64,000 bases of DNA from Cyclonatronum proteinivorum (GTDB lineage Bacteria > Bacteroidota > Rhodothermia > Balneolales > Cyclonatronaceae): assembly GCF_003353065.1 (NCBI RefSeq), contig NZ_CP027806.1, positions 3,368,501 through 3,432,500 of the forward strand, written 5' to 3'. Of this stretch, positions 4,578 to 61,828 are shown in pieces. Position 1 is the first letter of the stretch. The number at the start of each line of letters is the position of its first letter. A program made the position numbers and the translations under genes. The notes under the pieces are model-generated. The model was not told the DNA's origin. It did not search any database and saw nothing but the letters and a program-made list of their open reading frames with translations.

Positions 4578-4627
4578 CCCACACAACCTACTTTAAATTA
4601 TAAAGCAAAAACCCGGTGCTTTGCCGG

Positions 4628-5377
4628 CTACTTGATCGGGATTATTTTCGGATCGTCGGCCCCGCCAAGCGGTCTGTCCTGGTCGTTGTCATCGTCATCG
4701 TCGTCATCCATATTATTGAATAACTGATCAAGCCCGCCTTCGCCAAACAAGGCATCGCCGCGGCTTTTCAGGTGCTCAGCCATGGATTGCATTACCTTTT
4801 GCGCCTCTTCGCTGAGCTCGACATTCTCTCCGTTCGCCCACTTTTGCAGCTCCTCTGCGTGCACATCCAGACCAAAATCGGCAAAATTGAGAAACCCTTC
4901 ATCGTCGAAGTCATCGTCATCATCATCGTCCCAGTCGTCGTCATCTGCAATGAGCCCATTAAGTTCATCAATGCACGCGTCTAATGTGAGTTCAACCTTA
5001 TCAAACTGTTTTTTCAGCGCCTTCTTAGACTTTAATTCTTCGACCATCTGCGCGTACTCCATCAGAGCATCGAGCGCCGGCATCCAGCATACAAAGAACT
5101 GCGTGAAATCTTCCTCATCTATTTCAATGCTGTCCCTCAGCATGTGAGATACCTCAGTGATGGTCAAGTCTGTAGGCATATCCCGCGGATCACCATAGTA
5201 AACGCCGTGAGTAATCTGCAATTGAATCAGCAATTCATACCAGTCACCTTCATTAAAAGTATCTTCCTTTAGCAGATCGGAGACAAGCGTTTCCGGTGTG
5301 AGTGCATAAGCGGCTTCACTTCTGATCCCTATCTCATTCATAATGGAATAGAGATATTTGTTCATCGTCAAATTCAT
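4628..5377 (-). CDS. Acidic protein of unknown function with two poly-Asp tracts
   Basis: This 249-aa protein is not a family I recognise. The frame is open further upstream to 5527 but would run into the macroglobulin gene, so I chose the ATG at 5377 (MNLTMNKYLYS), with a second ATG at 5365. There is no signal peptide or membrane segment, so it is probably cytoplasmic. The N-terminal ~80 residues (TLVSDLL, then DWYELLIQLQITHGV, then LTITEVSHML) follow the helix pattern of acyl carrier proteins. The DSL serine that carries phosphopantetheine is missing, so the resemblance is only suggestive. The middle and end carry two runs of mostly Asp. It sits between the alpha-2-macroglobulin and pbpC genes in the same direction, 50 bp upstream of pbpC, and is probably in their operon. 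Confidence 0.8.
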   Translation of the reverse strand: MNLTMNKYLYSIMNEIGIRSEAAYALTPETLVSDLLKEDTFNEGDWYELLIQLQITHGVYYGDPRDMPTDLTITEVSHMLRDSIEIDEEDFTQFFVCWMPALDALMEYAQMVEELKSKKALKKQFDKVELTLDACIDELNGLIADDDDWDDDDDDDFDDEGFLNFADFGLDVHAEELQKWANGENVELSEEAQKVMQSMAEHLKSRGDALFGEGGLDQLFNNMDDDDDDDNDQDRPLGGADDPKIIPIK

Positions 5378-5415
5378 TTTTTTGGGGTTAAGTTGTAAAA
5401 AAGAAAGGTAGGGTT

Positions 5416-5449
5416 TCCGCGGGCCAATTACAGGAGAACCTGCCGCGGA
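5416..5449 (-). terminator. Possible weak terminator after the macroglobulin gene
   Basis: A 7-bp perfect inverted repeat (TCCGCGG / CCGCGGA) with a 20-nt loop lies in the 85-bp gap after the macroglobulin stop. Reading leftward it is followed by a T-rich stretch ending in TTTCTTTTTT. The T-tract is displaced by about 10 nt, so it may only attenuate read-through to the acidic-protein gene. Confidence 0.35.
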
Positions 5450-5462
5450 GACAAAAAAAGAG

Positions 5463-8400
5463 TTAGCGGTGTACCTCCACGCGGGATGCTGTGGTTCGCG
5501 CGAAGACTGCGGGGTCGTGCAGTGCATGCACCGAAACTGCGGGCAGAAGGAAGTCCCCCGCGTAGGTCGCGGTCAGGTGCATCCGAAAAATGCGGGTTTG
5601 CCCGGCAGGCAGGCTGAAATACGTGAGCATGCGATCGTCGCGCACGTCCTGATAGTCCGCTTGTGAAGCAGCTTCGCGGAAGGCGTCGTTGTCGCCGCGG
5701 GTGCTGATGATTTCCCATCCCGACGGAAAAATCTGCGTCAGCGCGAGATTTTGCAGCGGTCCGCGGCTTCCGGGATTGGTGACCCGCACTTCGGCGATCA
5801 GGTCGGTGCCCATGCGGAGCCGGGCCGGATCAACTTTATCGCCATTCGGGAAGAAATACTGCACATCAAGGGCAAGATCGGAAGATGCTGCCGGACTGCG
5901 GTCCTCGGCGGGGATGCCGGACTGCAACAGGCGCGCAAACACGACGCCGCTGCCTTCGTTGCGCAGTTCTATGCGATGCGTGCCGGTTTCGGTGATTTCA
6001 AACGGAACCTGCCACAGCGGCTGCGTGCCGCTGATCTGACCTGAGCCGATGCCCGTACCTTCGAAACGAACCGCGGTTTGTTCGGAAACCGGATAGGCTT
6101 CAGCGAAGCGGGCCGCGGCAATGAGCGCAAAGGCTACCGTCTGCGGAGAAAACCATTCGTCGCGGTTGATTTCGGCGGAGACCTCCATCATCAGGCGGGA
6201 AGCCTGATCCGCGAGGCCGAGCAGGACGAGGCTTTCGAGCATCATGGCGCGGTCGCGCAGGCTGCTGCCATAGGTGCCGCCGGTTTCGCGGTAGGATGAA
6301 ATTTGGGTACCAGCCTGACGCACGAGCTGCGAGGCGGCCTCCGGCATACCGGCGGCCTGATAGGCTGCAGCCAAGCGCCAGCGGGCCTGTGCTGAAAGCG
6401 CGTTCACCTCCCGCAGGCGGTTCATGGAACCCAGCGGGGCTTCACCGCTGATGACCAGGGTGTAGAGGCGGTAGGCCTGCATTAAATCGGCGCTGTGGGG
6501 CGCGTCAGGCACTTCCCGCCAGTTGCCGGCGGCCTGCTGCTGGAACCGGCGCAGCGGTGCTTTGAGACTGCCCGGCACAAAATAGCCGGCCCGTTCGGCC
6601 TCCGTGAGAAAGTGCAGCGCGAAGCTGCTGAGCCACTCCTGCGCAACCGCCTGACCCGGCCACTGCGCAAGTCCGCCGTTCGGCAGCTGATAGCGGCTGA
6701 GTGCGGCAATGACCTCTTCCACCCGGCGGCGGCTTTCGGCCTGCTGCGCGGCCCCCGCATCGGATCCGGTTCCGCTAAACACGCTCAGGTACAGGTGCGG
6801 GAATGCGCGTGCAATCTGCGCTTCGAGGCTGCTGTGCGGGTAGCGGTTCAGGAAGCGGATGTGACGCCCAAGGTCAACCGGCGGAATAGCCGAGATTTCG
6901 AGCAGGGCTTCCCCCGCACCGGGCGCACCGACTGGGTCAAAGTTCAGATCCCAGCTCTCTCCGGCCTGAAGGTTTTGGGCGAATAGCTGCGTGACCGGCG
7001 GATTCGGATTCCGGATGCTCAGCTCGATTTCATCGCGCCCCTGTTCGCTTCCGCTTTGGGCGTGCAGGATGATGCGTCCCGTGCCGGTAAGCGGGCCCGT
7101 GCGCAGCTCGAAGCGTTCGAGGCGATCGCCCATACCGGAAAAAGCAAGCCGACGGCGGGTATCATCCCTAAGCTCAAAAAGTTCGTTGGCTTCAAGGCGC
7201 AGCTGCACCTCGCGGATGCGGTCCTCCATCGCAAACACCGTTGCCGGCAGCTCGACCCGCTCGCCGGGACTCAAAACCCGCGGCAGGGTACCGACCACCA
7301 TCACCGGCTGACGCACCGGCACGGCAGCTTCGGCACTTCCGAAGGCATCATCCTGCCCGGCAACAACCATCACCCGGACCGAGCCGACGTAGTTCGGAAT
7401 GTCCACCCGGTGCACAGCTGTCGAGCCGGAAGCCAGCGTGAACGGCCCCAAGAAACGAACCATCGGCCTGAACCGGACCACTTCCGCTGTTTCCAGATCA
7501 GCCAGATCCAGGTCGCCCCCGATGGCCAGAATCCGGCTCAGGGCGCCGGCATAGGCACCGGCCACATCATCATAAACATCCCAGGTGCGCACGCCCAGCG
7601 CTTCGCGCGCATAGAAATGGCTGTGCGGGTCGGGCGTCCGGAAGTTGGTGAGGTCGAGCAGGCCTTCATCCACCAGCGCGAGGGTGTAGGTCATTGCGCG
7701 GCCGCGCTGCTCGCTTACGCGGATTTCGGCGACGGATTCAGGTCGCATTTCTGACGGAACGCCAAGCACCGGCTGCAGACGGGTAGCCGGATTGTTCACG
7801 GTAACGGGCACAACACCGTACATGCGGATGGGCAGGTCGTTGAAGCGCTGTCCGTGCGGCTGCACCACGTGCACGCTCGCGTACACGGTCGGACTCATGC
7901 CGGCTTCGGCGGGAATCCGGATTTCATTCATGCCCGGTGCGGTTTCGGTCCAGAAGCTGCGGAGCACTTCGCTGCCGGTCTCCAGGCTTACGAGCGCCCG
8001 CGCCTGATGCGCACCGGGAAAGCGCAGGGTGATGGTCTCCCCGACCTCATACTGCTCGCGGTCGGTTTCCACGGTGAGGCGGGTCGGCGCACCGCCCTCG
8101 GCTTCGTTGCCGCTCCACCCCATAAAAAACACTTTTCCGGCGGCGTGTCCGCCGGGCGCTTCGACCTCGAGGAGATAGCGGCCCCAATCAAGCTGCATGG
8201 CCGGCAGCGAAATGTTGACCTGTCCGCTGCTATTGGTGCGGACAGTAGTAGAAAGCAAAGGTGAACGGCTTCTGGAGCTGAAAAACTGACTCAGGTTTTC
8301 ATCCCGCCGCTGCCACCACCAGCGCCAGTCGAGTTCAAAAATGGTGATGGTGAGGCTTTGATTAGCCAGCGGCTGCCCTTCGGCATTGACCAGCACCGCC

Positions 8401-10988
8401 TGCGCGCGAATGGGCGCGTCGTAGGCAAAGGTGTCGCGCTCGTCGGCCCCGACCAGGCGTATGCCCGCAATACTATTGTAGGGGAGGTAGCGGAAGGACG
8501 TGGTGCCCGTGCTGAAATTGCCGGATTCCTCAAAAACGCGGGTCGTGAGGGTGCCTTGCAGCAGACCTGGCGAGCGGTCGGGCCTTTGGAGGCGGTGCGT
8601 GAAGCGGGTCTGACCCTGAGCATCAAGGCGACCCCGGAAGATTTCATCGGACTGCGAACTGAGTGCTCTCGCAGGATTATCAAAGGTGAACTGCGCGTAA
8701 TCCGTGAACCGGAGCGAGACCGCCCGCAGGCTCAGGCTCAGATCCGTGTCCAGATTTCCGGCTATGGCGCCATGCAGCCACTCGGCGCTGATGCTGCCGC
8801 TGAGCGTAGCCTGTGCCCCGCTCAGGCGGGTCTCGTCCGGCTCGGTGCGGATACGCAGCCGGTTCGGCTGAATGGTTTCGATGTTGATGTTTCGGGTGAA
8901 GGTGTTGCCGCCCACCCGCGCGCGCAGCTGCCAGCGGCCGGTTTCAGCGCGGGCTTCGGTCCGGCCGGCGAAAGTATAGAGCCGGTTCACGGGATGCACC
9001 GTGCGCCGCTCGGTCACCCGGCCCGACGGATCGAGCAGCTCAAAAGTCGCGGGATGTGCCGCCGGGAGCATGGACTCATCGGCCTGTATCATCAGGTTCA
9101 CAAAAAGCGAATCGCCGGGCCGCCTGACCCCGCGCTCGCTGTAGAGGAAGCCTTTCACGCCGCCTTCAACACGGGCGCCGGAAACATCAAACTCGCTCAG
9201 GGAAAGTGCGCCGCCTTCATTCAGCCGGAGGTACGCCCGCTCGGCACCCCGATTTGCCAGCAGCAGGAAGGGTTCCTGCTCAGGCGCATCCATCACCCAA
9301 AAGCCGTCGCTGTCGGTGCGCCCGGCAGCCAGGGTTTGCTGCTGAAAATCAAGCACTTCCAGCTCAATCCCCGAAAGCGGTCGGGCGGTGACCAGACTTG
9401 CGGCAGTGACGTGCAGCTTTCCGGATTCCGCGCGCTTGGCGATCAGGCCGATGTCGGAGGCCAGCGTATTGCGGCTTACCCGGCGATTGGAAGTGTAAAA
9501 AGAGCTGTGACATGGATTGTCGCGCTCCCGCCAGTCGTACTCGCCGAAAGCCCAGAGGGTGTCGAAGTATTGCCAGTAGTTTTCTTCTGCGACTGGATCA
9601 GGGTCCTGCCAGTTGGTACTTGCCGGACTTACGGCTGCCCCACCGTCGCAGGGATACAGCGACTGATGCTGCCGGAACCCCAGGGTCACGCGGTAGATGG
9701 CGCCCGGCTCGGGTTCGATAATGCGGCTGAGGTCAATCGCGTAACTATTCCGCTTGCCGGGTTCGCTACCACTGAGGGTGCTGAGCGGTATGACCTCACC
9801 GGCAACCGGCCTTCCCACTTCACGCAGCGACCAGCCGCCATCTCCCAGACGGCTCGATTGCAGAAACTGCGGGATGTTGTTTTCGAAGATGCGGACGACC
9901 TGCACATCGACCGCGCCGAGGTTTACAGCTTCGAAGGGCAGCAGCAGCTCGGTGCTGTTGGGGAGGATGACGCCGCTGCCGAGCAGACGGATCTGCGGCG
10001 GTTCGTGCGCGAGTGTCAGGGTTCGGGTTACCTCCTCTGCGAGGCGCTGTCCCTGTGCGCCGCGAATGCCGGAGGCCAGCAGCAGGCGCGCCTCACCAGG
10101 CTGCGCTGCCCGAGGATACACGAGCAGGCGGTTGTTCCGGATGATGACGCCGGGATCGGGCAGGCCTTCGAAGCGGACCAGCCCCGTAAGGTTTTGCGTG
10201 GCATCAAGCGGGTCGGAGAAGGAGACTTCGACGAAGGGTTGCTGCTCATAGACGACGCGAACATCGGTGATGGTGAAGCTGTCGCGGGAAGGCACCGTGA
10301 GGCGGGCATTGCCGCGGGTGCGGGCGCCGAGCGGACGGGCATCCCAGCTGAGTTCGAGCTCCTGCGGCTGCGCCTCGCGGTCGATGCCGGTGAGGGTGAA
10401 GCTGAAACTGCGGTCAGTTTCGCGGGTCACGACGGGGATGAGGCGCTGCCCCTTCAGCTCGGCACGCAGCACGCCGATGATGTCGGCGGTTTCGGCTACA
10501 TCGGCGGTGAGGATGCGTCCGCTGAGCTGCTGAGCGCCGCTGGGGGAATCCGGGTCGGGCTGCAGGGCTGCAAGCTGCACATCGAGGTCCTGAGGGATGA
10601 TGCCGAGCTCGAACACAAACAGACGGGACTCCCCGCCGGGAGCAAGCGCGCGCCCCGCATCGAAGGTGACCTGATACCGGGCGCCGTTTTCGAGGCGGGA
10701 GGCGGGTCGGAAAACGACGGTGCGCTCATCGGCCCAGCGCTGCTCGCCCCGCACCGAAGGCCGGAGCGTGAACAGGTTCGGATTGGCGTTCCGGATTGAT
10801 TCACTGACCGGGTTCACGAAGCGAACCACAATCTCAGAATCGCTGCTGAGGAGGCCGCTCGAGTAGGAGGCGATCTCCCCGCTAAACTGCCCGGGACTCG
10901 TGAGTTTTTCGTCTGAAGTTTTTCCGCAGCCGGAAAATAGCAGCAGCACAAAGCCAATGAGAATAGTACACCTGATGGATACCCGCAT
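5463..10988 (-). CDS. Alpha-2-macroglobulin family lipoprotein lacking the thioester
   Basis: This envelope protein of about 1841 aa belongs to the bacterial macroglobulin family, which traps proteases attacking the periplasm. I chose ATG at 10988; the longer frame begins with a TTG. The N-terminus (MRVSIRC, a hydrophobic stretch, then LLFSGC) looks like a lipoprotein signal with Cys21 as the acylated residue, although Phe at -3 is not ideal. Multiple beta-rich macroglobulin-like repeats follow, then a helical thiol-ester-domain-like region. Where canonical members have GCLEQ, this protein reads YPHSSLEAQ (Ser1387 and Ala1390 replace the reactive Cys and the Gln). Apart from two Cys in the signal region, I see only two other cysteines, in YPCDGG and NPCHSS. 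Covalent trapping is therefore unlikely. Its position upstream of pbpC matches the enterobacterial yfhM-pbpC pair. Confidence 0.9.
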   Translation of the reverse strand: MRVSIRCTILIGFVLLLFSGCGKTSDEKLTSPGQFSGEIASYSSGLLSSDSEIVVRFVNPVSESIRNANPNLFTLRPSVRGEQRWADERTVVFRPASRLENGARYQVTFDAGRALAPGGESRLFVFELGIIPQDLDVQLAALQPDPDSPSGAQQLSGRILTADVAETADIIGVLRAELKGQRLIPVVTRETDRSFSFTLTGIDREAQPQELELSWDARPLGARTRGNARLTVPSRDSFTITDVRVVYEQQPFVEVSFSDPLDATQNLTGLVRFEGLPDPGVIIRNNRLLVYPRAAQPGEARLLLASGIRGAQGQRLAEEVTRTLTLAHEPPQIRLLGSGVILPNSTELLLPFEAVNLGAVDVQVVRIFENNIPQFLQSSRLGDGGWSLREVGRPVAGEVIPLSTLSGSEPGKRNSYAIDLSRIIEPEPGAIYRVTLGFRQHQSLYPCDGGAAVSPASTNWQDPDPVAEENYWQYFDTLWAFGEYDWRERDNPCHSSFYTSNRRVSRNTLASDIGLIAKRAESGKLHVTAASLVTARPLSGIELEVLDFQQQTLAAGRTDSDGFWVMDAPEQEPFLLLANRGAERAYLRLNEGGALSLSEFDVSGARVEGGVKGFLYSERGVRRPGDSLFVNLMIQADESMLPAAHPATFELLDPSGRVTERRTVHPVNRLYTFAGRTEARAETGRWQLRARVGGNTFTRNINIETIQPNRLRIRTEPDETRLSGAQATLSGSISAEWLHGAIAGNLDTDLSLSLRAVSLRFTDYAQFTFDNPARALSSQSDEIFRGRLDAQGQTRFTHRLQRPDRSPGLLQGTLTTRVFEESGNFSTGTTSFRYLPYNSIAGIRLVGADERDTFAYDAPIRAQAVLVNAEGQPLANQSLTITIFELDWRWWWQRRDENLSQFFSSRSRSPLLSTTVRTNSSGQVNISLPAMQLDWGRYLLEVEAPGGHAAGKVFFMGWSGNEAEGGAPTRLTVETDREQYEVGETITLRFPGAHQARALVSLETGSEVLRSFWTETAPGMNEIRIPAEAGMSPTVYASVHVVQPHGQRFNDLPIRMYGVVPVTVNNPATRLQPVLGVPSEMRPESVAEIRVSEQRGRAMTYTLALVDEGLLDLTNFRTPDPHSHFYAREALGVRTWDVYDDVAGAYAGALSRILAIGGDLDLADLETAEVVRFRPMVRFLGPFTLASGSTAVHRVDIPNYVGSVRVMVVAGQDDAFGSAEAAVPVRQPVMVVGTLPRVLSPGERVELPATVFAMEDRIREVQLRLEANELFELRDDTRRRLAFSGMGDRLERFELRTGPLTGTGRIILHAQSGSEQGRDEIELSIRNPNPPVTQLFAQNLQAGESWDLNFDPVGAPGAGEALLEISAIPPVDLGRHIRFLNRYPHSSLEAQIARAFPHLYLSVFSGTGSDAGAAQQAESRRRVEEVIAALSRYQLPNGGLAQWPGQAVAQEWLSSFALHFLTEAERAGYFVPGSLKAPLRRFQQQAAGNWREVPDAPHSADLMQAYRLYTLVISGEAPLGSMNRLREVNALSAQARWRLAAAYQAAGMPEAASQLVRQAGTQISSYRETGGTYGSSLRDRAMMLESLVLLGLADQASRLMMEVSAEINRDEWFSPQTVAFALIAAARFAEAYPVSEQTAVRFEGTGIGSGQISGTQPLWQVPFEITETGTHRIELRNEGSGVVFARLLQSGIPAEDRSPAASSDLALDVQYFFPNGDKVDPARLRMGTDLIAEVRVTNPGSRGPLQNLALTQIFPSGWEIISTRGDNDAFREAASQADYQDVRDDRMLTYFSLPAGQTRIFRMHLTATYAGDFLLPAVSVHALHDPAVFARTTASRVEVHR

Positions 10989-11220
10989 AATAAAGCCCAA
11001 AAAAGCATTGATTTAAAATTCGAATACAGCTATCAGATAAAATAGGAATAATAGCAGGTAAATCTGCACATGAATCCCAATCCTCAAGCGGGTCATCTCC
11101 ACAAAAAGCTACGGTTTGCCTTGTTCAAACGCTTGCAGCGGAATGATTTTGAAGTCAAAAACCTTTAGTGCACCGTATTAGCTAAACCAAATTATTTAAT
11201 CAACCCTGAATCACTATCCC

Positions 11221-50902: not shown

Positions 50903-53900
50903 TTAGAATTGAAGGTTTACGCCTGCAGTAATCTGGCGGGACTGCGGGTACACACCGGTACCCTGACCCACAAATTCGGGATCACCGAACATGTAGTTGG
51001 TCCATGTGAGCAGGTTCCTGCCCTGAACAAATACATTTGCCCGTGAAAGGCTTACGCGCTCCAGAAACTGAGAAGGAACCTGATAATCGAGGCGAACCTC
51101 CTTAAGGCGGATATAAGAAGCATCATTGATGTACACCGAGTTGGTGTTGTGACTGCTGCTGCCGGGGAATGCACTTGAGTTATAGTGACGTGGCAGATAG
51201 GTCATATCGCCGGGTTGCTGCCAGGCATCGCGGGCGACGCGGGCATGCAGACCACGTTCAGAACTTACGCTATGCATCCGACGCCCGATGGTCTGGTTAA
51301 ATGCATCGCGGCCATGCTCATACTGGAAGAAGGTATAGAGCTGGAAATTGCGGTAGCGGAAGGTGTTCACAAAGCCCCCGAAGAAGTCAGGTGAAAAGGA
51401 ACCAATCTGCTGCTGGTCGGCACTGGTTCTCCTGTATGTGACATGGCCGTCTTCATCCTCCCACATTACCCTACCGTCGGCAGGGTTGATACCGATAAAC
51501 TTGTTGCCCCAGATAATATCAAGCGGGAAGCCAACGCGGACGGATGATCCAAGAATATCGAGACCGTCAACCAGCTCAATAACCTCGTTTTCCTGGAAAG
51601 TGATGTTAAATGCGCTTGTCCAGTTGAAGTCGCGTGCGTTTATGACCCGGCCACCAAGTTCGATTTCCCAACCGGTATTCCGTACTACCCCCGCGTTGCG
51701 GGCGATACTGGAGAAACCGCTGTCAGTAGGCAGAAACGCATTAAGCAGCAGGTTTCGGTTGTTGGTACGATAGCGGTTTACATCGGCAAATACGCGCCCT
51801 TCAAAAAGGGAGAGTTCAAAACCAAGGTCAAGGGTTTCCGCTTCTTCCCAGGTCAGTACGTCGTTGCCGAGGCCGCTTGGACGCAGGCCGGTTGCGCCTT
51901 CGTAGGTACCACCGCTTCCGAACAGGGAGCGGGAAGCAAAATCGCTGATACCGGAATTCCCGGTTATACCGTAGCTGGTTCGAAGCTTAAGCTGATCAAT
52001 AAAGGTGAAGCGCTCCATAAAGCTTTCCTGCGCTATATCCCATGCAAGGGCACCGGAATAGAAAAGACCCCAGCGGTTGTTTTCACCGAATCGGGATGAG
52101 CCGTCGTAGCGCATGTTGCCGCTTACGAAATAGCGCTGCATGTAGCTGTAATCGACACGGGTAAACGCTCCTGCATTTTTAGATTCGGTTGTACGGCCGG
52201 AAATGCTGCTTTCAATAGCAGCAAGATCAAGCTGCTGAAAGAGCGGATTAGGGAACATTTCACCGGCAGCGGCAAAGCTTTGGTACTGATTTTCGCGGTA
52301 TTCCACCCCGGCTACAACCGTGATGTCGTGCTCATCGAAGTTTTGGAAGTACTCAATGAGCTGATTGGTGTTGAAAGCGACCGTTTCCCGGAAACGCTCT
52401 GTGAGCGAACCGCCGGTTGCAGCATAGCGCGGCAGCAGGGGCGAGGTGTAGGAGCGGTCGCGCACCGTACGGTAATCAACCCCCCAAAGAGAACGGAAAG
52501 AGATGTTATCCTGAATACGGTAAATACCTGTAAGGCTACCACGGAGCTGACGTGTGGTTGCTTCCCGGGTGTTTACATCAAGCAGATGAACAAGATTAAC
52601 CCGAATTATATCATTGTGATTGTAGTCCCCGTCTTCAGTAAAAATGGCATCAATCGGTCGTTGCGTGATGCCGCCATGAAAGGGACTCAGAATATTTGCA
52701 CTACCGGTTCTAACACCGTTTGCTTCTGACGTTGATGCGCTGAGACGTGTAGCCAGCGTAAAGCGATCGTTAAAGCTATGATCAATGTTGGAACGGAAGC
52801 GTAAAGTACTGAAATCGCTGCCATTTACGGCCCCTTGTTCAAAATCGTACGAACCTGAGAGAAAAATACGGGTGTTATCAAAGCCAGCTGATGCAGATAT
52901 GCTGTAATTATGCAGCGCTCCTGAACGGGAGATGGCATCCTGCCAGTCATAGGTTGGAGCTGTAGCCGGGTCACCGAAACGATCAATGGCCTGCTGACGG
53001 GCTTGCTCTTCATCACGCCCGCGATCAACTTCCCGGTTTACGAAACCCTGAATCATCACATCGGTCCAGGTTGGCCCGTCCATGACATCTATTTTCTCCG
53101 GCTGCGCATTAAAGCCTACCTGAGAGGAAATATTGATCTGGGTTTGTCCCCTGCGCGCCTGACGCGTGGTAATCAGTACCACACCGTTAGCACCCTGCGC
53201 ACCATACAAGGCTGTGGCAGAAGCATCTTTGAGCACTTCAATACTTTCAATATCATTCGGATTGATGCCGGTAAGCGCGTTGTCTTCTACAACTACCGAA
53301 GTGAAATCAGTACGCACCTGAACCCCATCCACAATATAAATGGGTGAGTTTGAAGCATTGATGGAACCGCGACCGCGCACACGAATCAACAGACCACTGC
53401 CGGGCTGACCACTGGTGTGAGACACCTGAACACCCGTCATTCTGCCCTGAAGCGCCTGATCAGGCGACTGAATCAGGCTTTGCTGAATATCAGCACCTTC
53501 AATACGAGAAAGTGCACCGGTAGGGGTGCTGCGCTGACGCACCGAATATCCGGTAACGACCACATCATCCAAAAAGGCTACGTCCTGTGTCAGCTGAAAG
53601 TGAAGCTCACGGGTTTCACCGGCAGTTACTGTGACTTCCCTGCGCTTGGTCTGATACCCTATGAACGAAATGCGTGCTGTGTAGCTGCCTTCAGGCAAAT
53701 TGGCAAGTTCGAACGTCCCATCAATGTCAGCAGCACGGCCAACATTGAGACCTTCGATGAAGATCGTAGCACCCGTTAGCGGCTCGCCGGTTTCTGCATC
53801 CCGAATGGAACCAGTCAGCGTACCCGTTGTGTCAGGCAACTCAGCAGTTAGAAGTACAAGCTGCCCGCTTTCGGTTACATAGTAAAAAAGCCCGGACTGA

Positions 53901-54274
53901 CTGGTGACCGCATCAAGTACGTACTCAAGCGAGCGCTGCTGATAGGTGCCTGTAACCAGCTGCTTGGTATCAATATCACTACGGTTGTAGTTGAGCTGAA
54001 GCCCGGTTTCTTTGGCAACTTTTTCAAGTGCTTCCAAAACAGGTGTGCTTCGGAAACTAACCGAAATATTCGACTGAAGCATATTGGCAACAGCACTGTT
54101 CTGGCCAGATACCGAGGTCAGCAGCTGGTTTGAAACCCGCTGATACAGCTGCGCTTCAGCCTGCGGTGTAAACGCAGGTAACAAAGCGAGCATCAGCATG
54201 AAAACAGCGACAAGCACTGCGCGCAGTGTTGCTGTTTTGCCGATTGAGGATAGTAGTAGCATGGTGTGATTCAT
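50903..54274 (-). CDS. SusC/RagA family TonB-dependent receptor with signalling (STN) domain
   Basis: This 1123-aa outer-membrane receptor starts at ATG at 54274 with a signal peptide (ending near QAEAQ). A secretin/TonB N-terminal STN domain (about 50-130: FRSTPVLEALEKVAKETGLQ) follows, then a carboxypeptidase-regulatory beta domain (LTGSIRDAETGEPLTGATIF). The plug (GVQVSHTSGQPGSGLLIRVRG, SPIYIVDGVQV) and a large beta-barrel ending in aromatic residues (ITAGVNLQF) complete it. The STN domain, together with the FecR and sigma genes upstream, indicates transmembrane signalling that activates transcription when ligand is transported. It imports a ligand shared with the SusD protein. Confidence 0.95.
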   Translation of the reverse strand: MNHTMLLLSSIGKTATLRAVLVAVFMLMLALLPAFTPQAEAQLYQRVSNQLLTSVSGQNSAVANMLQSNISVSFRSTPVLEALEKVAKETGLQLNYNRSDIDTKQLVTGTYQQRSLEYVLDAVTSQSGLFYYVTESGQLVLLTAELPDTTGTLTGSIRDAETGEPLTGATIFIEGLNVGRAADIDGTFELANLPEGSYTARISFIGYQTKRREVTVTAGETRELHFQLTQDVAFLDDVVVTGYSVRQRSTPTGALSRIEGADIQQSLIQSPDQALQGRMTGVQVSHTSGQPGSGLLIRVRGRGSINASNSPIYIVDGVQVRTDFTSVVVEDNALTGINPNDIESIEVLKDASATALYGAQGANGVVLITTRQARRGQTQINISSQVGFNAQPEKIDVMDGPTWTDVMIQGFVNREVDRGRDEEQARQQAIDRFGDPATAPTYDWQDAISRSGALHNYSISASAGFDNTRIFLSGSYDFEQGAVNGSDFSTLRFRSNIDHSFNDRFTLATRLSASTSEANGVRTGSANILSPFHGGITQRPIDAIFTEDGDYNHNDIIRVNLVHLLDVNTREATTRQLRGSLTGIYRIQDNISFRSLWGVDYRTVRDRSYTSPLLPRYAATGGSLTERFRETVAFNTNQLIEYFQNFDEHDITVVAGVEYRENQYQSFAAAGEMFPNPLFQQLDLAAIESSISGRTTESKNAGAFTRVDYSYMQRYFVSGNMRYDGSSRFGENNRWGLFYSGALAWDIAQESFMERFTFIDQLKLRTSYGITGNSGISDFASRSLFGSGGTYEGATGLRPSGLGNDVLTWEEAETLDLGFELSLFEGRVFADVNRYRTNNRNLLLNAFLPTDSGFSSIARNAGVVRNTGWEIELGGRVINARDFNWTSAFNITFQENEVIELVDGLDILGSSVRVGFPLDIIWGNKFIGINPADGRVMWEDEDGHVTYRRTSADQQQIGSFSPDFFGGFVNTFRYRNFQLYTFFQYEHGRDAFNQTIGRRMHSVSSERGLHARVARDAWQQPGDMTYLPRHYNSSAFPGSSSHNTNSVYINDASYIRLKEVRLDYQVPSQFLERVSLSRANVFVQGRNLLTWTNYMFGDPEFVGQGTGVYPQSRQITAGVNLQF

Positions 54275-54351
54275 GAATTGCAACTTTATGTTTTTGCGTT
54301 TCAGTGAGGTTTTGGTTGAGGATTTTAGCGTTTTGGTGTGGTTGATAGGTG

Positions 54352-55401
54352 TTATTGAGAATCTGAATTACGGGACGACACTTCAAAACTAAGCCCGTGG
54401 GTAAGCGAGGTGATGCTTAGAATTTCATTCAGGGATTCGGATGCGTAGCGTGCCGTTACGGGTTGCGTTGCACGGCTGCTATCGCTTAGCGTGATATGTA
54501 CATTGAAATGACGCTCAAGCTGTAAAATCACTTCTGAAAGCGGGGTATCGTTGAACAAAAAATATTGGCGGGTCCAGCTCAACAAAGCGTGGGCACCATT
54601 GGGGGAAGGCGCATCAGGTTTGGCACCATAGGTCACACGGGTAAACTCACCCGCCCCAACTTCAACCCCCTTTGCAGATTCATCGGATATGCCGGGAAAA
54701 CCCTGCACGGAAACCCTGCCGCTTTGAACCGCTATGTAGGAAACCCCCTGCTCCGGACGGGTGCGAACCCCAAAACTTGTACCGATTACTTCAACGGTGG
54801 CTTCAGCTGTTTGTACCACAAACGGCAGCGTTGTATCAGATTCTATTTCGAAAAACCCCTCACCAATCAGCGTAATACTGCGGGTTTCCTGACCATACAC
54901 ATCGGGCAGAAACAGACGGGAATCTGCGTTCAAACGAATACGGCTCCCGTCGGGCAGGCGATAGGTGCGCTGTTCGCCGTAAGCTGTTTCATACCATACG
55001 CCTGTATCTATGCCCGTAACTTCTGCCGGATTTTCAATAAAGCGGGGGTACAGCACATACATCGAAATGCCAAAAACGATGAGCAGAACAGCCGCAAGTT
55101 TTAGCCAGATTCCGGAATTCCGTTTATCCTGTAAAGCTCTGAAGGTGGCAGTTTTTGTTTTCCGGACAGCTTGTGGCTCAGATGATTCAGGAAGTTGTAC
55201 AGTCCGGTTCTTCCGAAAGGTCTGAAGCGCAGCTATGGTATCGAATCTTTCTGTTCTCTCAATTTTTACGGTATAAATCTTCCGGTATTCCTCAAACTGT
55301 GCGCGATTATCCGCACTGGCTGCCAGCCATTCCTCAAAGGCTTTATTTTCAGCAGCATTTGCTTCGCCTGATAAGTATCGGTGAATATTTGTGATCGTCA
55401 T
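54352..55401 (-). CDS. FecR-family anti-sigma factor
   Basis: FecR proteins relay a signal from the receptor's STN domain to the cognate ECF sigma factor. The 349-aa protein has a cytoplasmic N-terminal domain (HRYLSGEANAAENKAFEEWLAAS), one membrane helix (IWLKLAAVLLIVFGISMYVLY), the periplasmic FecR domain (TAYGEQRTYRLPDGSRIRLNADSRLF, EGFFEIESDTTLPFVV), and a C-terminal domain (FLFNDTPLSEVILQLERHF). Start is ATG. It lies 77 bp before the SusC gene and 54 bp after the sigma gene. Confidence 0.93.
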   Translation of the reverse strand: MTITNIHRYLSGEANAAENKAFEEWLAASADNRAQFEEYRKIYTVKIERTERFDTIAALQTFRKNRTVQLPESSEPQAVRKTKTATFRALQDKRNSGIWLKLAAVLLIVFGISMYVLYPRFIENPAEVTGIDTGVWYETAYGEQRTYRLPDGSRIRLNADSRLFLPDVYGQETRSITLIGEGFFEIESDTTLPFVVQTAEATVEVIGTSFGVRTRPEQGVSYIAVQSGRVSVQGFPGISDESAKGVEVGAGEFTRVTYGAKPDAPSPNGAHALLSWTRQYFLFNDTPLSEVILQLERHFNVHITLSDSSRATQPVTARYASESLNEILSITSLTHGLSFEVSSRNSDSQ

Positions 55402-55455
55402 TGAATGGGTTCGGTATAATGTTTTTGTATACCGGTATGACGAACGGAAAACCCT

Positions 55456-56019
55456 TTACCCTGAAATTTTTTTTGTTTTTACGGAATACAGATTCCCTCT
55501 GTCAAGCCTTTCTCGCAGTAATTTCAACGCTTTAGATATCCTTGATTCGATTGTTTTTTGTGGCAGGCCGAGTACCTCTGAAATTTCGGAATAGGTGAGA
55601 CCATCCTGTCTGTGCAGCAGATATGTTTCCCGGATGGGGTCAGGCAGGCGCTGTACTTCCCTGTTCACTTTAGCAATGAGGGCTTCATCGTCTGCATACC
55701 GTTCTTCATACGTGTTGAGACTTTCTTCCAGCTTCATATCGGTGATGATGTCTTGTTGATACTTATCCCGCATGGCACTGTGCCTGAGCAGATCCAGACA
55801 GCGGTTACGCACCGATTTGAATAACCATGCTTTAATATTCATATCATCGGTGATGGTTTCGCACCTTTCCCACAAGCGAAGAAAGGTTTCTTGCACAGCA
55901 CATTCTGAAGCTTGTCTGTCGCTCGTTATGCCCAGCGCATAGCCGCAGAGGGGCTCAAAGAACGCTAAAAACAGTTCTTCGAAAGCCTGCTTGTTGCCTC
56001 TCCGCAGTCCTTTAATCAT
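55456..56019 (-). CDS. ECF-type RNA polymerase sigma-70 factor
   Basis: This 187-aa sigma factor likely directs transcription of the SusC/SusD locus under FecR control. Region 2 (AFEELFLAFFEPLCGYALGI, QETFLRLWERCETI, KAWLFKSVRNRCLDLLRH) and region 4 (LPDPIRETYLLHRQDGLTYSEI, LGLPQKTIESRISKALKLLRERL) are clear. I chose ATG at 56019 (MIKGLRRGNKQAF); a TTG 13 codons earlier at 56058 is a possible alternative. It opens the transcription unit that runs leftward to the lipoprotein gene. Confidence 0.93.
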   Translation of the reverse strand: MIKGLRRGNKQAFEELFLAFFEPLCGYALGITSDRQASECAVQETFLRLWERCETITDDMNIKAWLFKSVRNRCLDLLRHSAMRDKYQQDIITDMKLEESLNTYEERYADDEALIAKVNREVQRLPDPIRETYLLHRQDGLTYSEISEVLGLPQKTIESRISKALKLLRERLDRGNLYSVKTKKISG

Positions 56020-56542
56020 GCTTTCGGGAGATTTCAAGTATTTGGAATTACCTGCCAAAAATTACCTGCTTCTTGCTTTGATCTGTTTCTTAGGTTGAGG
56101 TTTGTTTAATAATAAGCCAAGTCCTTGAAACAGATGTTATCTAAATAAGAATATTATCACTTTTTTTAATTAAGGCCGGGCTTCTCTTTATATCTCAGCA
56201 CTGCACCTCCCTCTCATTTTCAGACTGAATAAGCTGTATTCATGGGAAACCTAGGCGCAATATTACACGCTCTCTTCTAATGAAAGGCCTTTAATTCATC
56301 CTTAAATGAAAAACCGCTGTGCAAAATTTAAGCTCATCCGGTACGATATCAGCATTTCTGGCTTATGGTGTTATTAGCGGGTTTTTAATTTTCAATATTT
56401 GATTATTATTGAGCATATTGCCGTTTATTTAAATTTTTTAGTCCAATACATATGCGTCATCAATGCTACAGGATTTGACGAATATCCTTGACAAGTTGAC
56501 GCGCTTTACCTGTCCGGTGTATGCTTCATCCTTAGATTCGAA
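56020..56542. other. AT-rich intergenic region upstream of the sigma factor gene
   Basis: About 520 bp of AT-rich sequence without a supported gene. It should contain the promoter of the ECF sigma unit reading leftward. I see no stable hairpin or RNA gene. Confidence 0.45.
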
Positions 56543-58147: not shown

Positions 58148-61100
58148 TTAACTCAGGGCTTCGGCAACGAGTTTTTCCTGTTCGGCTGTGTGCAGCTTCA
58201 TGGTTCCGGCAGCCGGGGAGGCCGACGGGAAGCGTCCGGCGTATTTGATCTGGAAATCGTCTTTGAGGTCGTACTCGAAGCGCGAGCGGATGTAGGTCCA
58301 TGCGCCCATGTTGCGCGGCTCTTCCTGACACCACACGATTTCTTTGACGTTCGGGTAGGCTTCAATTTGCGCACGCACGTCTGAATCCGGGAACGGATAA
58401 TATTGCTCAATGCGCACAAGGGCGACGTCGTTGGCTTCGGTTTCCTTCCGCTTGTTGTACAGATCATAGTACACCTTACCGGAACAGAACACGACTTTGC
58501 GTACATCAGCGGCATTCACTTCCGTATCGCCGAGCACGTAGTTGAAACGTCCGTTGGCCAGCTCTTCAGTATTGGATACCGCAAGCGGATGACGCAGGAG
58601 GCTCTTGGGTGTGAACAGCACGGTCGGCTTTTTCGCGGCAGAAAGCGCCTGACGGCGGATCAGATGGAAAAGCTGTGCCGGGGTCGTACAGTTGCAGACG
58701 CGCATGTTGTCTTCCGCGCATAGCTGCAGGAAGCGCTCCATACGGGCCGATGAGTGCTCAGGGCCCTGACCTTCGTAGCCGTGCGGGAGCAACATCATCA
58801 GGCTTGAGGTCTGCCGCCACTTGGTTTCAGAGGAGGAGATGTACTGATCGATGATGATCTGCGCACCGTTCACAAAATCGCCGAACTGCGCTTCCCAAAG
58901 CACGAGAGATTCCGGACGCGAAGCGCTGTAGCCGAATTCGTAACCCAGGGCCGCAAACTCACTCAGCAAGCTGTTGTACACCTGAAACTTCGCCTGATCT
59001 TCATCGAGATGATTGAGCGGCGTGAATTTCTGACTCGTCTCGGTACCGTGCAACACGGCATGTCGGTGCGAGAAAGTACCGCGCTCGGAATCCTGACCGG
59101 CCAAACGAATCGGTACGCCCTGAACGAGCAAGCTGCCAAAGGCGAGGGCTTCGCCGTAGCCCCAGTCGATTTTCTTCTGATTTTTTTCCACAATTTCGCT
59201 GCGCTTGGCCAGAATGCGGAGAAGCTTCGGATTGGCGTCGAAATCAGCGGGTACTTTGTTCACCTTGTAGGCAATATCAACCAAGGTTTCGGTATCGACA
59301 GAGGTATCGGTTTCTTCATGCCGCTCGCTTTGGCTGCTGTGTTTGCGGAGGGTGTCTTTCTCACCAATCTCATAGCTCGGCAGCGACTTGGCACCGGTGA
59401 AAGCTTCTTCGAGGATGTCATCGAACTCTTTGAAGATTTCATCGACTTCTTCCTGCTTAAGCTCTTTTTTTCGGAGCAACTCTTTGGTGTAAATTTCGCG
59501 CACCTGCGAGTGATCCTTAATTTCGCGATACAGGCCGGGCTGTGTGAATGCGGGCTCGTCCCCTTCATTGTGCCCGTGCTTACGGTAACAAATGAGATCA
59601 ATGACCACATCTTTGCCGAAGCGCTGACGGTAATCGAGCGCAAGGTTCATGGCATGAACGCAGGCCTCGGGATCGTCGCCGTTCACGTGGAAGATGGGCG
59701 CGAGAATCATCTTGGCCAGATCGGAAGCGTAGCGGGTTGAACGGCCGTCACCGGGCAGGGTGGTGAAACCAATCTGATTGTTGATAATCAGGTGAATGGT
59801 ACCACCAGTTTTGTAGCCCTTCAGCTGCGACATGGTGAGGGTCTCGGCCACAACGCCTTGTCCTGCAAAAGCTGCGTCCCCGTGAATAAGAAGGGGGATG
59901 ACCTTGCTGCCGCTGTCTTCGTTGTTTTCGCTGATGAGGTCTTGCTTCGCCCTAACCGCGCCTTCTACGACCGGATTCACCGATTCCAGGTGAGACGGGT
60001 TCGGCATAAGCTCCAGCTTGATTTCCTTGCCTTCGGCGGTCGTGAAAACGCTGCGGGTACCGAGGTGATACTTCACATCGCCGGAGCCCTGTGCGCTGTC
60101 CGGATCGATGTTGCCTTCAAACTCAGAGAAAATCTGTTTGTAGGATTTACCCATGATGTTCACGAGCACATTCAGGCGGCCGCGGTGTGCCATCCCGAAT
60201 ACAACTTCTTCCACGCCGTACCCGCCGGCGCGCTCGAGCATGTGGTTGATAGTCGGGATTACCGACTCGGCACCTTCGAGTGAGAAGCGCTTGTGACCGA
60301 TGTATTTCTTGTGCAGAAACTCTTCGAAAGCTGACGCCTGATTAAGTTTTTTCAGAATGAGGCGCTTGTCGTCCTTGTCAAGGGCCGGGACGTTCAGCGT
60401 GCTTTCCATGGTATCGGTGAGCCAGTTGCGCTCACTGAGGTTGAGGATGTGCGTGTACTCCGCGCCGATTTTGCCGCAGTAGGTATCGCGCAGCAAGCTC
60501 ACAATATCCCGCAGCGGAGCTTTTTCCAGACCGCCCAGGCCACCGCAGTAAAACTCGCGGTCCATATCCCACATGGTGAGGCCGTGATACTCGTAATCCA
60601 GCTCCGGATGGTGACCCGGCCCGTGCTTCAGCGGGTTGATGTTTGCAAGCACGTGTCCGTGCGTGCGGTACATATTAATGAGGTTAAGCACCGAAACCGC
60701 CTTCTTGGTAGCGGCAAGGTTATCGGCATTGCCGCCGATCAGTCCCGAGTAATTATCGCGTCCGAACGGAATCGGATCGTAGGGAATGTCGAGGTCCGCA
60801 AAAATGGAATCGTAAAAATCTTCATTACCCGTGAGAAGGCTGTGCACCTTAGCCAGGAAGTTGCCGCTCTCCGCGCCCTGAATGATACGGTGATCATAGG
60901 TGCTCGTCATCGTCATCACTTTGCTGATGCCGAGATGATTAAGCAACTCTTCAGACATGGACTGAAACTCGGCAGGGTAATCCATCGCGCCGGTTGCCAC
61001 AATGGTGCCCTGACCTTTCATCAGTCGGGGCAGGGAAGAAACCGTGCCGATCGTACCGGGATTGGTGATACTGATGGTTGTGCCCTGAAAGTCCGGCACA

Positions 61101-61828
61101 TCAAGCTGACCGTTACGGGCCCGCGAAATAAGCTCATAGTACGCGTGCAAAAACTCGCGGAAGCTCATTTTGTCTACTTTCTTGATGTTGGCTACTACAA
61201 GATTTCGGGAGCCGCCTTTTCCGGGGAGGTCGATGGCAATTCCGAGATTGACATCATTAGGATACACCTTCACCGGACGTCCTTTTTCGTCCGTGTCGTA
61301 GTAGGCATTCATGGAAGGCACTTCTTTGAGGGCGCGAATGACGGCCCAGCCGATGAAGTGTGTAAAAGTCGCCTTGGGTTCACCGCGCTCAACGAGATGC
61401 TTGTTGATGATATTCCGGTCTTCGAAAAGCATTTTTACCGGTATCACGCGCAGCGAGGTTGCCGTAGGCAGCTCAAGGCTCTGATCCATGTTTTCGGCAA
61501 TCTTGGCTGAAGCACCGCGCAGGGGTTCTGTTTTTACATCCTCATGCTTTGCGGCTGTTTGATCAGCTTTCTTTTCCGTTTTTTTCGGCTTTTCGGGAGC
61601 CGCTTTGGGTGCAGCCGGAGTTGCCGTCGCGGCACCGTTGGTAGCGGCTTGTTTTGTGGCAGGCTGTGGCGGTGTTGCGGCTACGACACCGGTATCCATC
61701 TTGTGAATGTTCTCATTAAAATAATTGCGCCAGTACTCAGGAACCGAATCCGGGCTTTCCTGATATTGTTTTAATAATTCTTCAACAAGAGCTGCATTCG
61801 GGCCAAATAGTTCTTCAAGTGACTTCAA
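58148..61828 (-). CDS. kgd: Fused 2-oxoglutarate dehydrogenase E2-E1 (multifunctional 2-oxoglutarate metabolism enzyme)
   Basis: This 1226-aa chain combines the succinyltransferase (E2) and thiamine-dependent decarboxylase (E1) parts of the TCA-cycle 2-oxoglutarate dehydrogenase, as in actinobacterial Kgd/OdhA. The N-terminal E1 tail (LEELFGPNAALVEELLKQYQ) is followed by an Ala/Lys linker (about 50-105), an E2 catalytic core (about 110-340) with TYDHRIIQGAESGNF (His313), and E1 with HGDAAFAGQGVVAETL and IINNQIGFTT. I see no lipoyl domain, so it must use one from another protein. The start is TTG at 61828, since no in-frame ATG fits the domain start. It is alone on the minus strand with a terminator just after it. 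Confidence 0.94.
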   Translation of the reverse strand: MKSLEELFGPNAALVEELLKQYQESPDSVPEYWRNYFNENIHKMDTGVVAATPPQPATKQAATNGAATATPAAPKAAPEKPKKTEKKADQTAAKHEDVKTEPLRGASAKIAENMDQSLELPTATSLRVIPVKMLFEDRNIINKHLVERGEPKATFTHFIGWAVIRALKEVPSMNAYYDTDEKGRPVKVYPNDVNLGIAIDLPGKGGSRNLVVANIKKVDKMSFREFLHAYYELISRARNGQLDVPDFQGTTISITNPGTIGTVSSLPRLMKGQGTIVATGAMDYPAEFQSMSEELLNHLGISKVMTMTSTYDHRIIQGAESGNFLAKVHSLLTGNEDFYDSIFADLDIPYDPIPFGRDNYSGLIGGNADNLAATKKAVSVLNLINMYRTHGHVLANINPLKHGPGHHPELDYEYHGLTMWDMDREFYCGGLGGLEKAPLRDIVSLLRDTYCGKIGAEYTHILNLSERNWLTDTMESTLNVPALDKDDKRLILKKLNQASAFEEFLHKKYIGHKRFSLEGAESVIPTINHMLERAGGYGVEEVVFGMAHRGRLNVLVNIMGKSYKQIFSEFEGNIDPDSAQGSGDVKYHLGTRSVFTTAEGKEIKLELMPNPSHLESVNPVVEGAVRAKQDLISENNEDSGSKVIPLLIHGDAAFAGQGVVAETLTMSQLKGYKTGGTIHLIINNQIGFTTLPGDGRSTRYASDLAKMILAPIFHVNGDDPEACVHAMNLALDYRQRFGKDVVIDLICYRKHGHNEGDEPAFTQPGLYREIKDHSQVREIYTKELLRKKELKQEEVDEIFKEFDDILEEAFTGAKSLPSYEIGEKDTLRKHSSQSERHEETDTSVDTETLVDIAYKVNKVPADFDANPKLLRILAKRSEIVEKNQKKIDWGYGEALAFGSLLVQGVPIRLAGQDSERGTFSHRHAVLHGTETSQKFTPLNHLDEDQAKFQVYNSLLSEFAALGYEFGYSASRPESLVLWEAQFGDFVNGAQIIIDQYISSSETKWRQTSSLMMLLPHGYEGQGPEHSSARMERFLQLCAEDNMRVCNCTTPAQLFHLIRRQALSAAKKPTVLFTPKSLLRHPLAVSNTEELANGRFNYVLGDTEVNAADVRKVVFCSGKVYYDLYNKRKETEANDVALVRIEQYYPFPDSDVRAQIEAYPNVKEIVWCQEEPRNMGAWTYIRSRFEYDLKDDFQIKYAGRFPSASPAAGTMKLHTAEQEKLVAEALS

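Follow-up and report, generated by a model that had tools for sequence, protein, structure and literature searches.

In E. coli, S. meliloti and B. velezensis, the E1 and E2 components of 2-oxoglutarate dehydrogenase are separate proteins, SucA (E1o) and SucB (E2o), each encoded by a gene of its own; a lipoyl domain is part of SucB. In Actinobacteria, E2 and E1 are fused into one chain, OdhA in Corynebacterium glutamicum and KGD in Mycobacterium smegmatis. The hybrid complex is described for Corynebacterium and mycobacteria in passages of PMC8146983 and presented as actinobacterial in those of PMC10581250, and the text of PMC10415282 on its OdhA sequence logo states that the logo was built from a search restricted to Actinobacteria. 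Here, we analyzed a window of 64,000 nucleotides (the whole stretch of DNA studied) from Cyclonatronum proteinivorum, a soda-lake bacterium of the Balneolales in the Bacteroidota lineage of GTDB (contig NZ_CP027806.1, positions 3,368,501 to 3,432,500), which carries an odhA-type gene. The fusion, described as an actinobacterial hallmark, occurs in at least three phyla. The window gene is very probably the cell's OdhA-type 2-oxoglutarate dehydrogenase, with lipoyl groups supplied in trans, most likely by an E2 that we call E2x, and with a fused form that arose once and, instead of being an invention of Actinobacteria, belongs to a family spanning the Bacteroidota group, Acidobacteriota and Actinomycetota. 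What makes the gene noteworthy is less the enzyme itself than its lineage and the lipoyl E2 that serves the fusion.

A fused 2-oxoglutarate dehydrogenase in the window

The gene and its parts occupy the following window positions, all on the minus strand. Handles beginning with L and G, here and below, denote our loci and genomes.

58148-61828 (-): odhA-type fused E2-E1 2-oxoglutarate dehydrogenase, 1226 amino acids, a single unbroken frame from TTG to stop
61826-61828 (-): TTG start codon, kept in Balneolales relatives
61712-61810 (-): E1 N-terminal segment, PF16078 2-oxogl_dehyd_N, residues 7-39 (36.6 bits, cut-off 27)
61541-61711 (-): linker rich in Ala, Pro and Lys, residues 40-96, with neither a lipoyl nor an E3-binding family match at E <= 1
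60830-61540 (-): E2 succinyltransferase core, PF00198 2-oxoacid_dh, residues 97-333 (171 bits, and position in the E2 tree)
60890-60892 (-): His313, the E2 catalytic histidine (C. glutamicum His316), in a DHRIIQG motif that includes Gln317 (C. glutamicum Gln320); H and Q in 67/67 fused proteins
60815-60817 (-): Phe338 (OdhA Phe340), in the phenylalanine-containing motif at the E2-E1 boundary; F in 66/67, Y in one
59375-60337 (-): E1 thiamine diphosphate (ThDP) domain, PF00676 E1_dh, residues 498-818, with catalytic His548, His588 and His753 (Pfam; each His in 67/67)
58592-59176 (-): E1 transketolase pyrimidine-binding domain, PF02779 Transket_pyr, residues 885-1079, with His1025 (Pfam; His in 67/67)
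58154-58576 (-): 2-oxoglutarate dehydrogenase C-terminal domain, PF16870 OxoGdeHyase_C, residues 1085-1225 (175 bits)

An earlier reading made from the sequence alone (the sequence-only reading) had taken the gene for an OdhA-type E2-E1 fusion without a lipoyl domain, and both points were borne out. Besides the order of Pfam domains, the protein matches NF008907, the model of the multifunctional OdhA/KGD family, with 1744 bits, in an alignment that spans positions 10-1239 of the 1241 in the model. In the PDB it comes closest to M. smegmatis KGD (8p5r), at 1229 bits, followed by C. glutamicum OdhA (8p5t) at 1199 bits. Both alignments run nearly end to end, so that the fold of the fusion is already indicated, and a hexameric shape would be expected for it. 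The E1 part is also homologous to stand-alone E. coli SucA (2jgd, 858-860 bits), which serves the same reaction in the two-gene system. The Pfam profile search of the 1226 residues yielded no match to the lipoyl (PF00364) or E3-binding domain even at E <= 1. The claim that E2 stands at the N-terminus of E1 held in part: the E2 core does precede the E1 core, but the short E1 N-terminal segment comes first, so that E2 is inserted between the two. This segment is alignable in 66 of 67 fused proteins, and the placement of E2 is thus common to the host and Actinobacteria. OdhA and KGD share with the host gene the domain order, the absence of a lipoyl domain, the E2 and E1 catalytic residues and the phenylalanine at the E2-E1 boundary.

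For the mapping of residues, 67 fused proteins (62 from the Bacteroidota group, two acidobacterial and three actinobacterial) were compared at positions singled out in C. glutamicum OdhA; the catalytic and motif roles of these positions are those given in passages of PMC10415282. Nine of the 11 named active-site and motif residues were invariant in all 67, namely Thr258, Ser268, Tyr314, His316, Gln320 (C. glutamicum numbering) and four E1 histidines. The remaining two were nearly so, with one T for Ser129 (S in 66/67) and one Y for Phe340. In the host, S125, T255, S265, Y311, H313, Q317 and F338 occupy the E2 and boundary positions with the expected residue at each, and H548, H588, H753 and H1025 are the E1 histidines. 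His313, singled out by the sequence-only reading, thus aligns with the catalytic histidine of OdhA. The likeness to the actinobacterial enzyme fails at Arg781, an E1-E2 contact kept in Actinobacteria, where the host has Lys787; R occupies this position in 3/3 Actinobacteria, 0/2 Acidobacteria and 23/62 Bacteroidota-group proteins. Since Arg781 is a regulatory contact and not a catalytic residue, it was left out of the defining features.

The host gene also differs from OdhA and KGD in its phylum and in its TTG start, which had been called unusual. We queried 22 Balneolales loci for the start codon, the window included; one (L051) gave no row and at least two pairs are near-duplicates. TTG occupied the start position in 21/21 rows while the flanking codons varied, and none of the 16 codons compared around the start was an alternative ATG, GTG or TTG. 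The start is therefore a real feature and not an annotation slip, and it is possibly a deliberately weak start. Rfam and tRNA scans gave no RNA match, and matches to promoters and terminators were no better than in shuffled sequence. As judged from its sequence, the window gene is confirmed as a predicted genuine OdhA/KGD-type enzyme, ordinary for its own lineage.

Distribution of the fusion

Fusion was judged by the aligned range and not by the NF008907 cut-off. Stand-alone SucA proteins (about 880-1200 bits) exceed that cut-off of 878 bits, which by itself is therefore unfit for calling a fusion. NF008907 is already part of the NCBI annotation library, and annotation by this model alone can mislabel an ordinary SucA as the fused enzyme.

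An intact fusion was found in 125 of the 296 genomes sampled from the host's GTDB phylum (rows of at least 1568 bits). For the phylum to which an Acidobacteria metagenome-assembled genome (MAG; L065, G297) belongs, the count was 21 of 119. In the host's class, 72 of the 74 sampled genomes carry it, 69 intact and three with the gene split over two contigs. No fused or separate 2-oxoglutarate dehydrogenase E1 was matched in the remaining two, G018 and G073 (both in genus g16 of family f7); they are small (2.1-2.4 Mb) and still hold E2p, the E2 of pyruvate dehydrogenase (PDH), and E2x. Among named records, the closest relatives (61-92% identity) belong to Balneolales, Balneolaceae or Balneolia. 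Among 79 related loci, 25 are fused: 22 of the Balneolales group, two of Acidobacteria and one of Ignavibacteria. Two more (L067, L069) are pieces of Balneolia contigs with E1 only, and 52 are stand-alone E1 genes of proteobacterial, verrucomicrobial or bdellovibrio origin, 44 of which have a separate E2 on the same fetched stretch. An IMG/VR scan found no relative. The fusion is the norm among the genomes sampled from an entire Bacteroidota-related class, and it is found across at least three bacterial phyla.

The sequence-only reading had considered a wider distribution than is usually stated, and the genome counts bear this out. Among the matches listed in the open full-text literature (titles and beginnings of abstracts), no paper on an OdhA-type fusion outside Actinobacteria was found; a wider distribution may already be described in other papers. 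The distribution warns against calling the fusion specific to Actinobacteria, for example when it is weighed as a drug target.

Three records stood out in form. In G272 (C6:72738-76453), odhA lies as two adjacent frames on one contig, which cover query residues 3-432 and 436-1226; the gene may have been split secondarily, or the break may come from a frameshift or an error in sequencing. NZ_LT559118.1 (L123, 11.85 Mb) and NZ_LN868939.1 (L124, 2.66 Mb) carry odhA and are filed as plasmids, yet look like chromosomes or large chromosome pieces.

Partners in the host genome and the proposed reaction

The host genome is a single contig of 4,294,247 bases. Searches for E1 and E2, including PF00198, found no separate sucA or sucB in it. 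A recent acquisition of the fused gene beside a normal sucA-sucB pair was rejected, as the single contig holds no such pair. PF00198 recovers three E2 cores: the fusion, PDH E2p (L006), which adjoins its own E1 alpha and beta genes (L001), and E2x (L007). The four matches to PF00364 are E2p, E2x and two proteins with a biotin-type motif (AMKM or AMKI), and E2p and E2x each have one lipoyl domain and one E3-binding domain. The dependence on another acyltransferase, claimed by the sequence-only reading, agrees with a fusion that has no lipoyl domain in a genome with these two lipoyl-bearing E2s. One lipoamide dehydrogenase gene (lpd, L330) scores above its family cut-off.

From these parts the following course of reaction can be proposed. 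The E1 part would decarboxylate 2-oxoglutarate on ThDP and then reductively succinylate a lipoyl group carried by another protein, and the E2 part of the same chain would pass the succinyl group to coenzyme A (CoA). The lipoyl arm would be reoxidized by the lipoamide dehydrogenase. The lipoyl donor would most likely be E2x, with PDH E2p as the alternative.

The two candidate donors differ in the E2 core. Host E2p passes the classical PDH model (497 bits, cut-off 445), and its tail, ending in LLEEPMGMLL, is a canonical C-terminal knob. E2x (483 amino acids: lipoyl domain, E3-binding domain and E2 core) has no such knob. Its best model is TIGR02927 SucB_Actino, the model of actinobacterial AceF. 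With 408 bits it stays just below the cut-off of 423, whereas E2p reaches 243 bits. E2x thus resembles AceF in its best-matching model and in the lack of a canonical knob, but differs from it in remaining under the cut-off and in forming its own group in the E2 tree (support 81/77). The tails of several acidobacteriotal E2x proteins (LEAGQFSL type) resemble those of AceF (LEAGKFEV in Georgenia), while those of Bacteroidota (LEEFDTNRSI type) are not as long as the insertion in AceF. Two further E1 proteins of the host, with alpha and beta parts in one chain (L002 and L003, 667 and 694 amino acids), are likely other users of E2x.

In the actinobacterial models, as passages of PMC10415282 describe them, the donor is the knob-less AceF, and a three-residue C-terminal insertion reduces the PDH E2p to trimers. 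The host, in contrast, has a canonical E2p beside the knob-less E2x, and its E2p, which keeps the knob, is not of the trimer type found in the actinobacterial system that joins PDH and 2-oxoglutarate dehydrogenase (PDH-ODH). OdhA beside a canonical E2p runs contrary to a strict rule that ties OdhA to a trimeric PDH. A possible need of OdhA for a trimeric donor and a possible exclusion of a large PDH core by it thereby become testable in other organisms.

E2x as the probable lipoyl donor

Of 45 class genomes searched for E2 genes, 43 have the fusion, and all 43 hold at least two further E2 cores each. From the fetched E2s, E2p is confirmed for 28 of these genomes and E2x for 37; an extra E2 was seen at L162 (G108) and a second E2x-like one at L197 (G030). 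Fused genomes outside the class were more restrictive. Just one other E2 was found in 13/18 genomes of the Bacteroidota group and in 7/21 acidobacteriotal genomes, or 20/39 in total, and in all 20 it was of the E2x type, with lipoyl and E3-binding domains. If the lipoyl group comes from an E2, elimination leaves E2x as the donor in these 20 genomes; a lipoyl protein of another kind, such as GcvH, might serve in its place. Three of them (G005, G043 and G059) are single contigs with 99-100% completeness.

None of the E2s fetched from these genomes resembles a genuine SucB. Against SucB queries, the 123 E2 frames of class members and of the remaining fused genomes, a set outside which three acidobacteriotal E2s remained, scored at most 207 bits. 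Eight SucB proteins of non-fused genomes, one of them a query, scored at least 313.

The knob was scored as a simple text pattern (proline and hydrophobic residues, typical of large E2 cores), not as a structure. Read in this way, it was present in 53/53 E2p and 58/59 SucB-like frames and in 0/83 E2x frames; the lone SucB-like frame without it (L102) has an E2 frame of only 222 amino acids. A knob-less E2 is present in every fused genome whose E2x was fetched.

Several observations weigh against E2x as the donor, or against a tie between OdhA and a knob-less E2. Gaps in MAGs could hide an E2p in some of the genomes where E2x is the sole other E2. E2x also occurs in genomes without OdhA (G018, G073 and seven loci of non-fused genomes); it must therefore have other partners, for which the two fused alpha-beta E1s of the host are obvious candidates. 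Since E2x is knob-less in those genomes too, the pattern is a correlation and does not make OdhA the cause of knob loss. In the class of frames whose best match is AceF, of which only two of four are actinobacterial, one has the knob (L215, found in a genome that lacks the fusion but belongs to the host's phylum). Finally, the presence of E2p in the host and in many fused class genomes makes it possible as a donor.

A somewhat unlikely alternative takes up this last point: in the host, the canonical E2p would donate the lipoyl groups in a PDH-ODH supercomplex as in Corynebacterium, and E2x would serve only the two fused alpha-beta E1s. The role of the PDH E2 AceF as donor in Actinobacteria (as given in passages of PMC10415282) agrees with it, as does the E2p of the host and of the 28 fused class genomes; the 15 others hold an unfetched E2 of like score. 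The 20 fused genomes with E2x as their only other E2 argue against it, and so does the AceF model, to which E2x and not E2p comes nearest. The canonical core, moreover, is the type that the same source, in a passage of speculation, holds to be perhaps incompatible with OdhA. Far less probable is a protein that works without any lipoyl partner and whose main activity is that of a 2-oxoglutarate decarboxylase or carboligase. Such a role was once proposed for mycobacterial KGD, and the fusion does lack a lipoyl domain. The host also has a korAB-type pair for a 2-oxoacid:ferredoxin oxidoreductase (L271 1060-2913 (-) and 3-1091 (-), near 4239305-4239940 of G000:C1; 617 and at least 363 amino acids, the second ending at the edge of the locus), which on this account would carry the flux to succinyl-CoA. 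Mycobacteria likewise have a korAB route from 2-oxoglutarate to succinyl-CoA. The pair is a possible second, ferredoxin-linked route, and given its presence the fused enzyme need not carry the whole flux. A pure decarboxylase, however, would have no use for the fully kept E2 active site (His313, Gln317, Thr255, Tyr311, Ser125). Strain Omega of C. proteinivorum, a haloalkaliphilic member of the Balneolaeota, is moreover described in passages of PMC6243061 as growing aerobically with a full set of tricarboxylic acid cycle genes. E2x serving a working 2-oxoglutarate dehydrogenase is the reading that we keep.

Phylogeny and origin

The sequence-only reading had named separate phylogenies of E2 and E1 as a check. 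In the E2 tree, the 28 fused E2 domains analyzed, among them the three from Actinobacteria, group in a single clade (100/100) that is distant from SucB, E2p, E2x and AceF. Fused and separate enzymes split cleanly (100/100), and with E1 alone the split was recovered at 99/99 in the careful tree, from which the long row L128 and five others had been left out. The fused form thus apparently had a single origin.

Within the fused clade, the Balneolales genes form a deep clade of their own (100/100). The three actinobacterial rows lie apart from it, in a clade (98/99) that they share with Acidobacteriota and with those members of the host's class that are not Balneolales. Bacteroidota-group and acidobacteriotal sequences are interleaved. 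In the tree with acidobacteriotal rows, a single Bacteroidota-group clade was rejected (p = 1.6e-35); this strength is partly due to L259, which falls among Acidobacteriota, and without L259 and six further rows the clade was still rejected (p = 8.6e-5). A single acidobacteriotal clade was rejected as well (p = 4.5e-8). The host's class as one clade was not rejected by the approximately unbiased (AU) test (p = 0.061). From these trees, we conclude that the gene was probably transferred repeatedly between phyla, in an uncertain direction.

L259 (G164, family f41) deserves a remark of its own. Its genome is grouped in the host's phylum and its OdhA lies deep among acidobacteriotal sequences, as after a recent transfer or in a mis-binned contig.

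An ancient transfer from Actinobacteria to Balneolales, which the sequence-only reading had entertained in describing an actinobacterial gene in a Bacteroidota-like genome, is improbable. The fusion is strongly similar to actinobacterial OdhA overall, and a clade of Actinobacteria and Balneolales passes the AU test (p = 0.103). The best trees, however, place the two groups apart, as described above. Furthermore, all non-actinobacterial fused rows as one clade, with Actinobacteria outside, were marginally rejected (AU p = 0.040, for a group chosen post hoc). As a whole, the interpretation of the sequence-only reading is therefore partly supported.

It is possible, and we propose it tentatively, that the fusion is not an actinobacterial invention at all. 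Its single origin would lie in or near Acidobacteriota or Bacteroidota-group lineages, and its later passage from phylum to phylum would have reached Actinobacteria too. Its partner would always be an AceF-like E2 that has no knob and is predicted to form trimers only, and a canonical PDH core would be tolerated in the same cell. If true, such a rule would take the place of the link proposed between OdhA and the loss of the PDH core. Some results speak for caution here. The nesting of Actinobacteria has moderate support, from three sequences and p = 0.040, in groups picked after the tree was seen, and the joint clade with Balneolales is among those that pass. In the quick E1 tree, the split between fused and separate enzymes has a support of only 34, and with E1 alone and without most acidobacteriotal rows, one Bacteroidota-group clade passes (AU p = 0.113).

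Regulatory and neighboring genes

The sequence-only reading had also pointed to a regulatory forkhead-associated (FHA) protein like OdhI or GarA. In this respect too the host differs from the OdhA/KGD systems, as no soluble FHA protein of the OdhI/GarA type was found in it. The sole FHA protein found (L043 574-1749 (+), 391 amino acids) was rejected as an OdhI-like regulator, since it has an apparent signal peptide and a membrane segment (both judged by eye). Its gene is flanked by Ser/Thr-kinase-like and PP2C-like genes as read from their sequences, and the three look like a compact phospho-signalling cluster.

Two further groups of genes lie in the window itself. At 2169-11000 (-), a penicillin-binding protein (transglycosylase, transpeptidase and BiPBP_C domains; Pfam) lies near a bacterial alpha-2-macroglobulin of 1845 amino acids, a known gene pairing. 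At 50903-56058 (-), a SusC-like TonB receptor (50903-54283) adjoins anti-sigma-like and extracytoplasmic function (ECF)-sigma-like genes, which by their sequences resemble a typical Bacteroidota uptake regulon.

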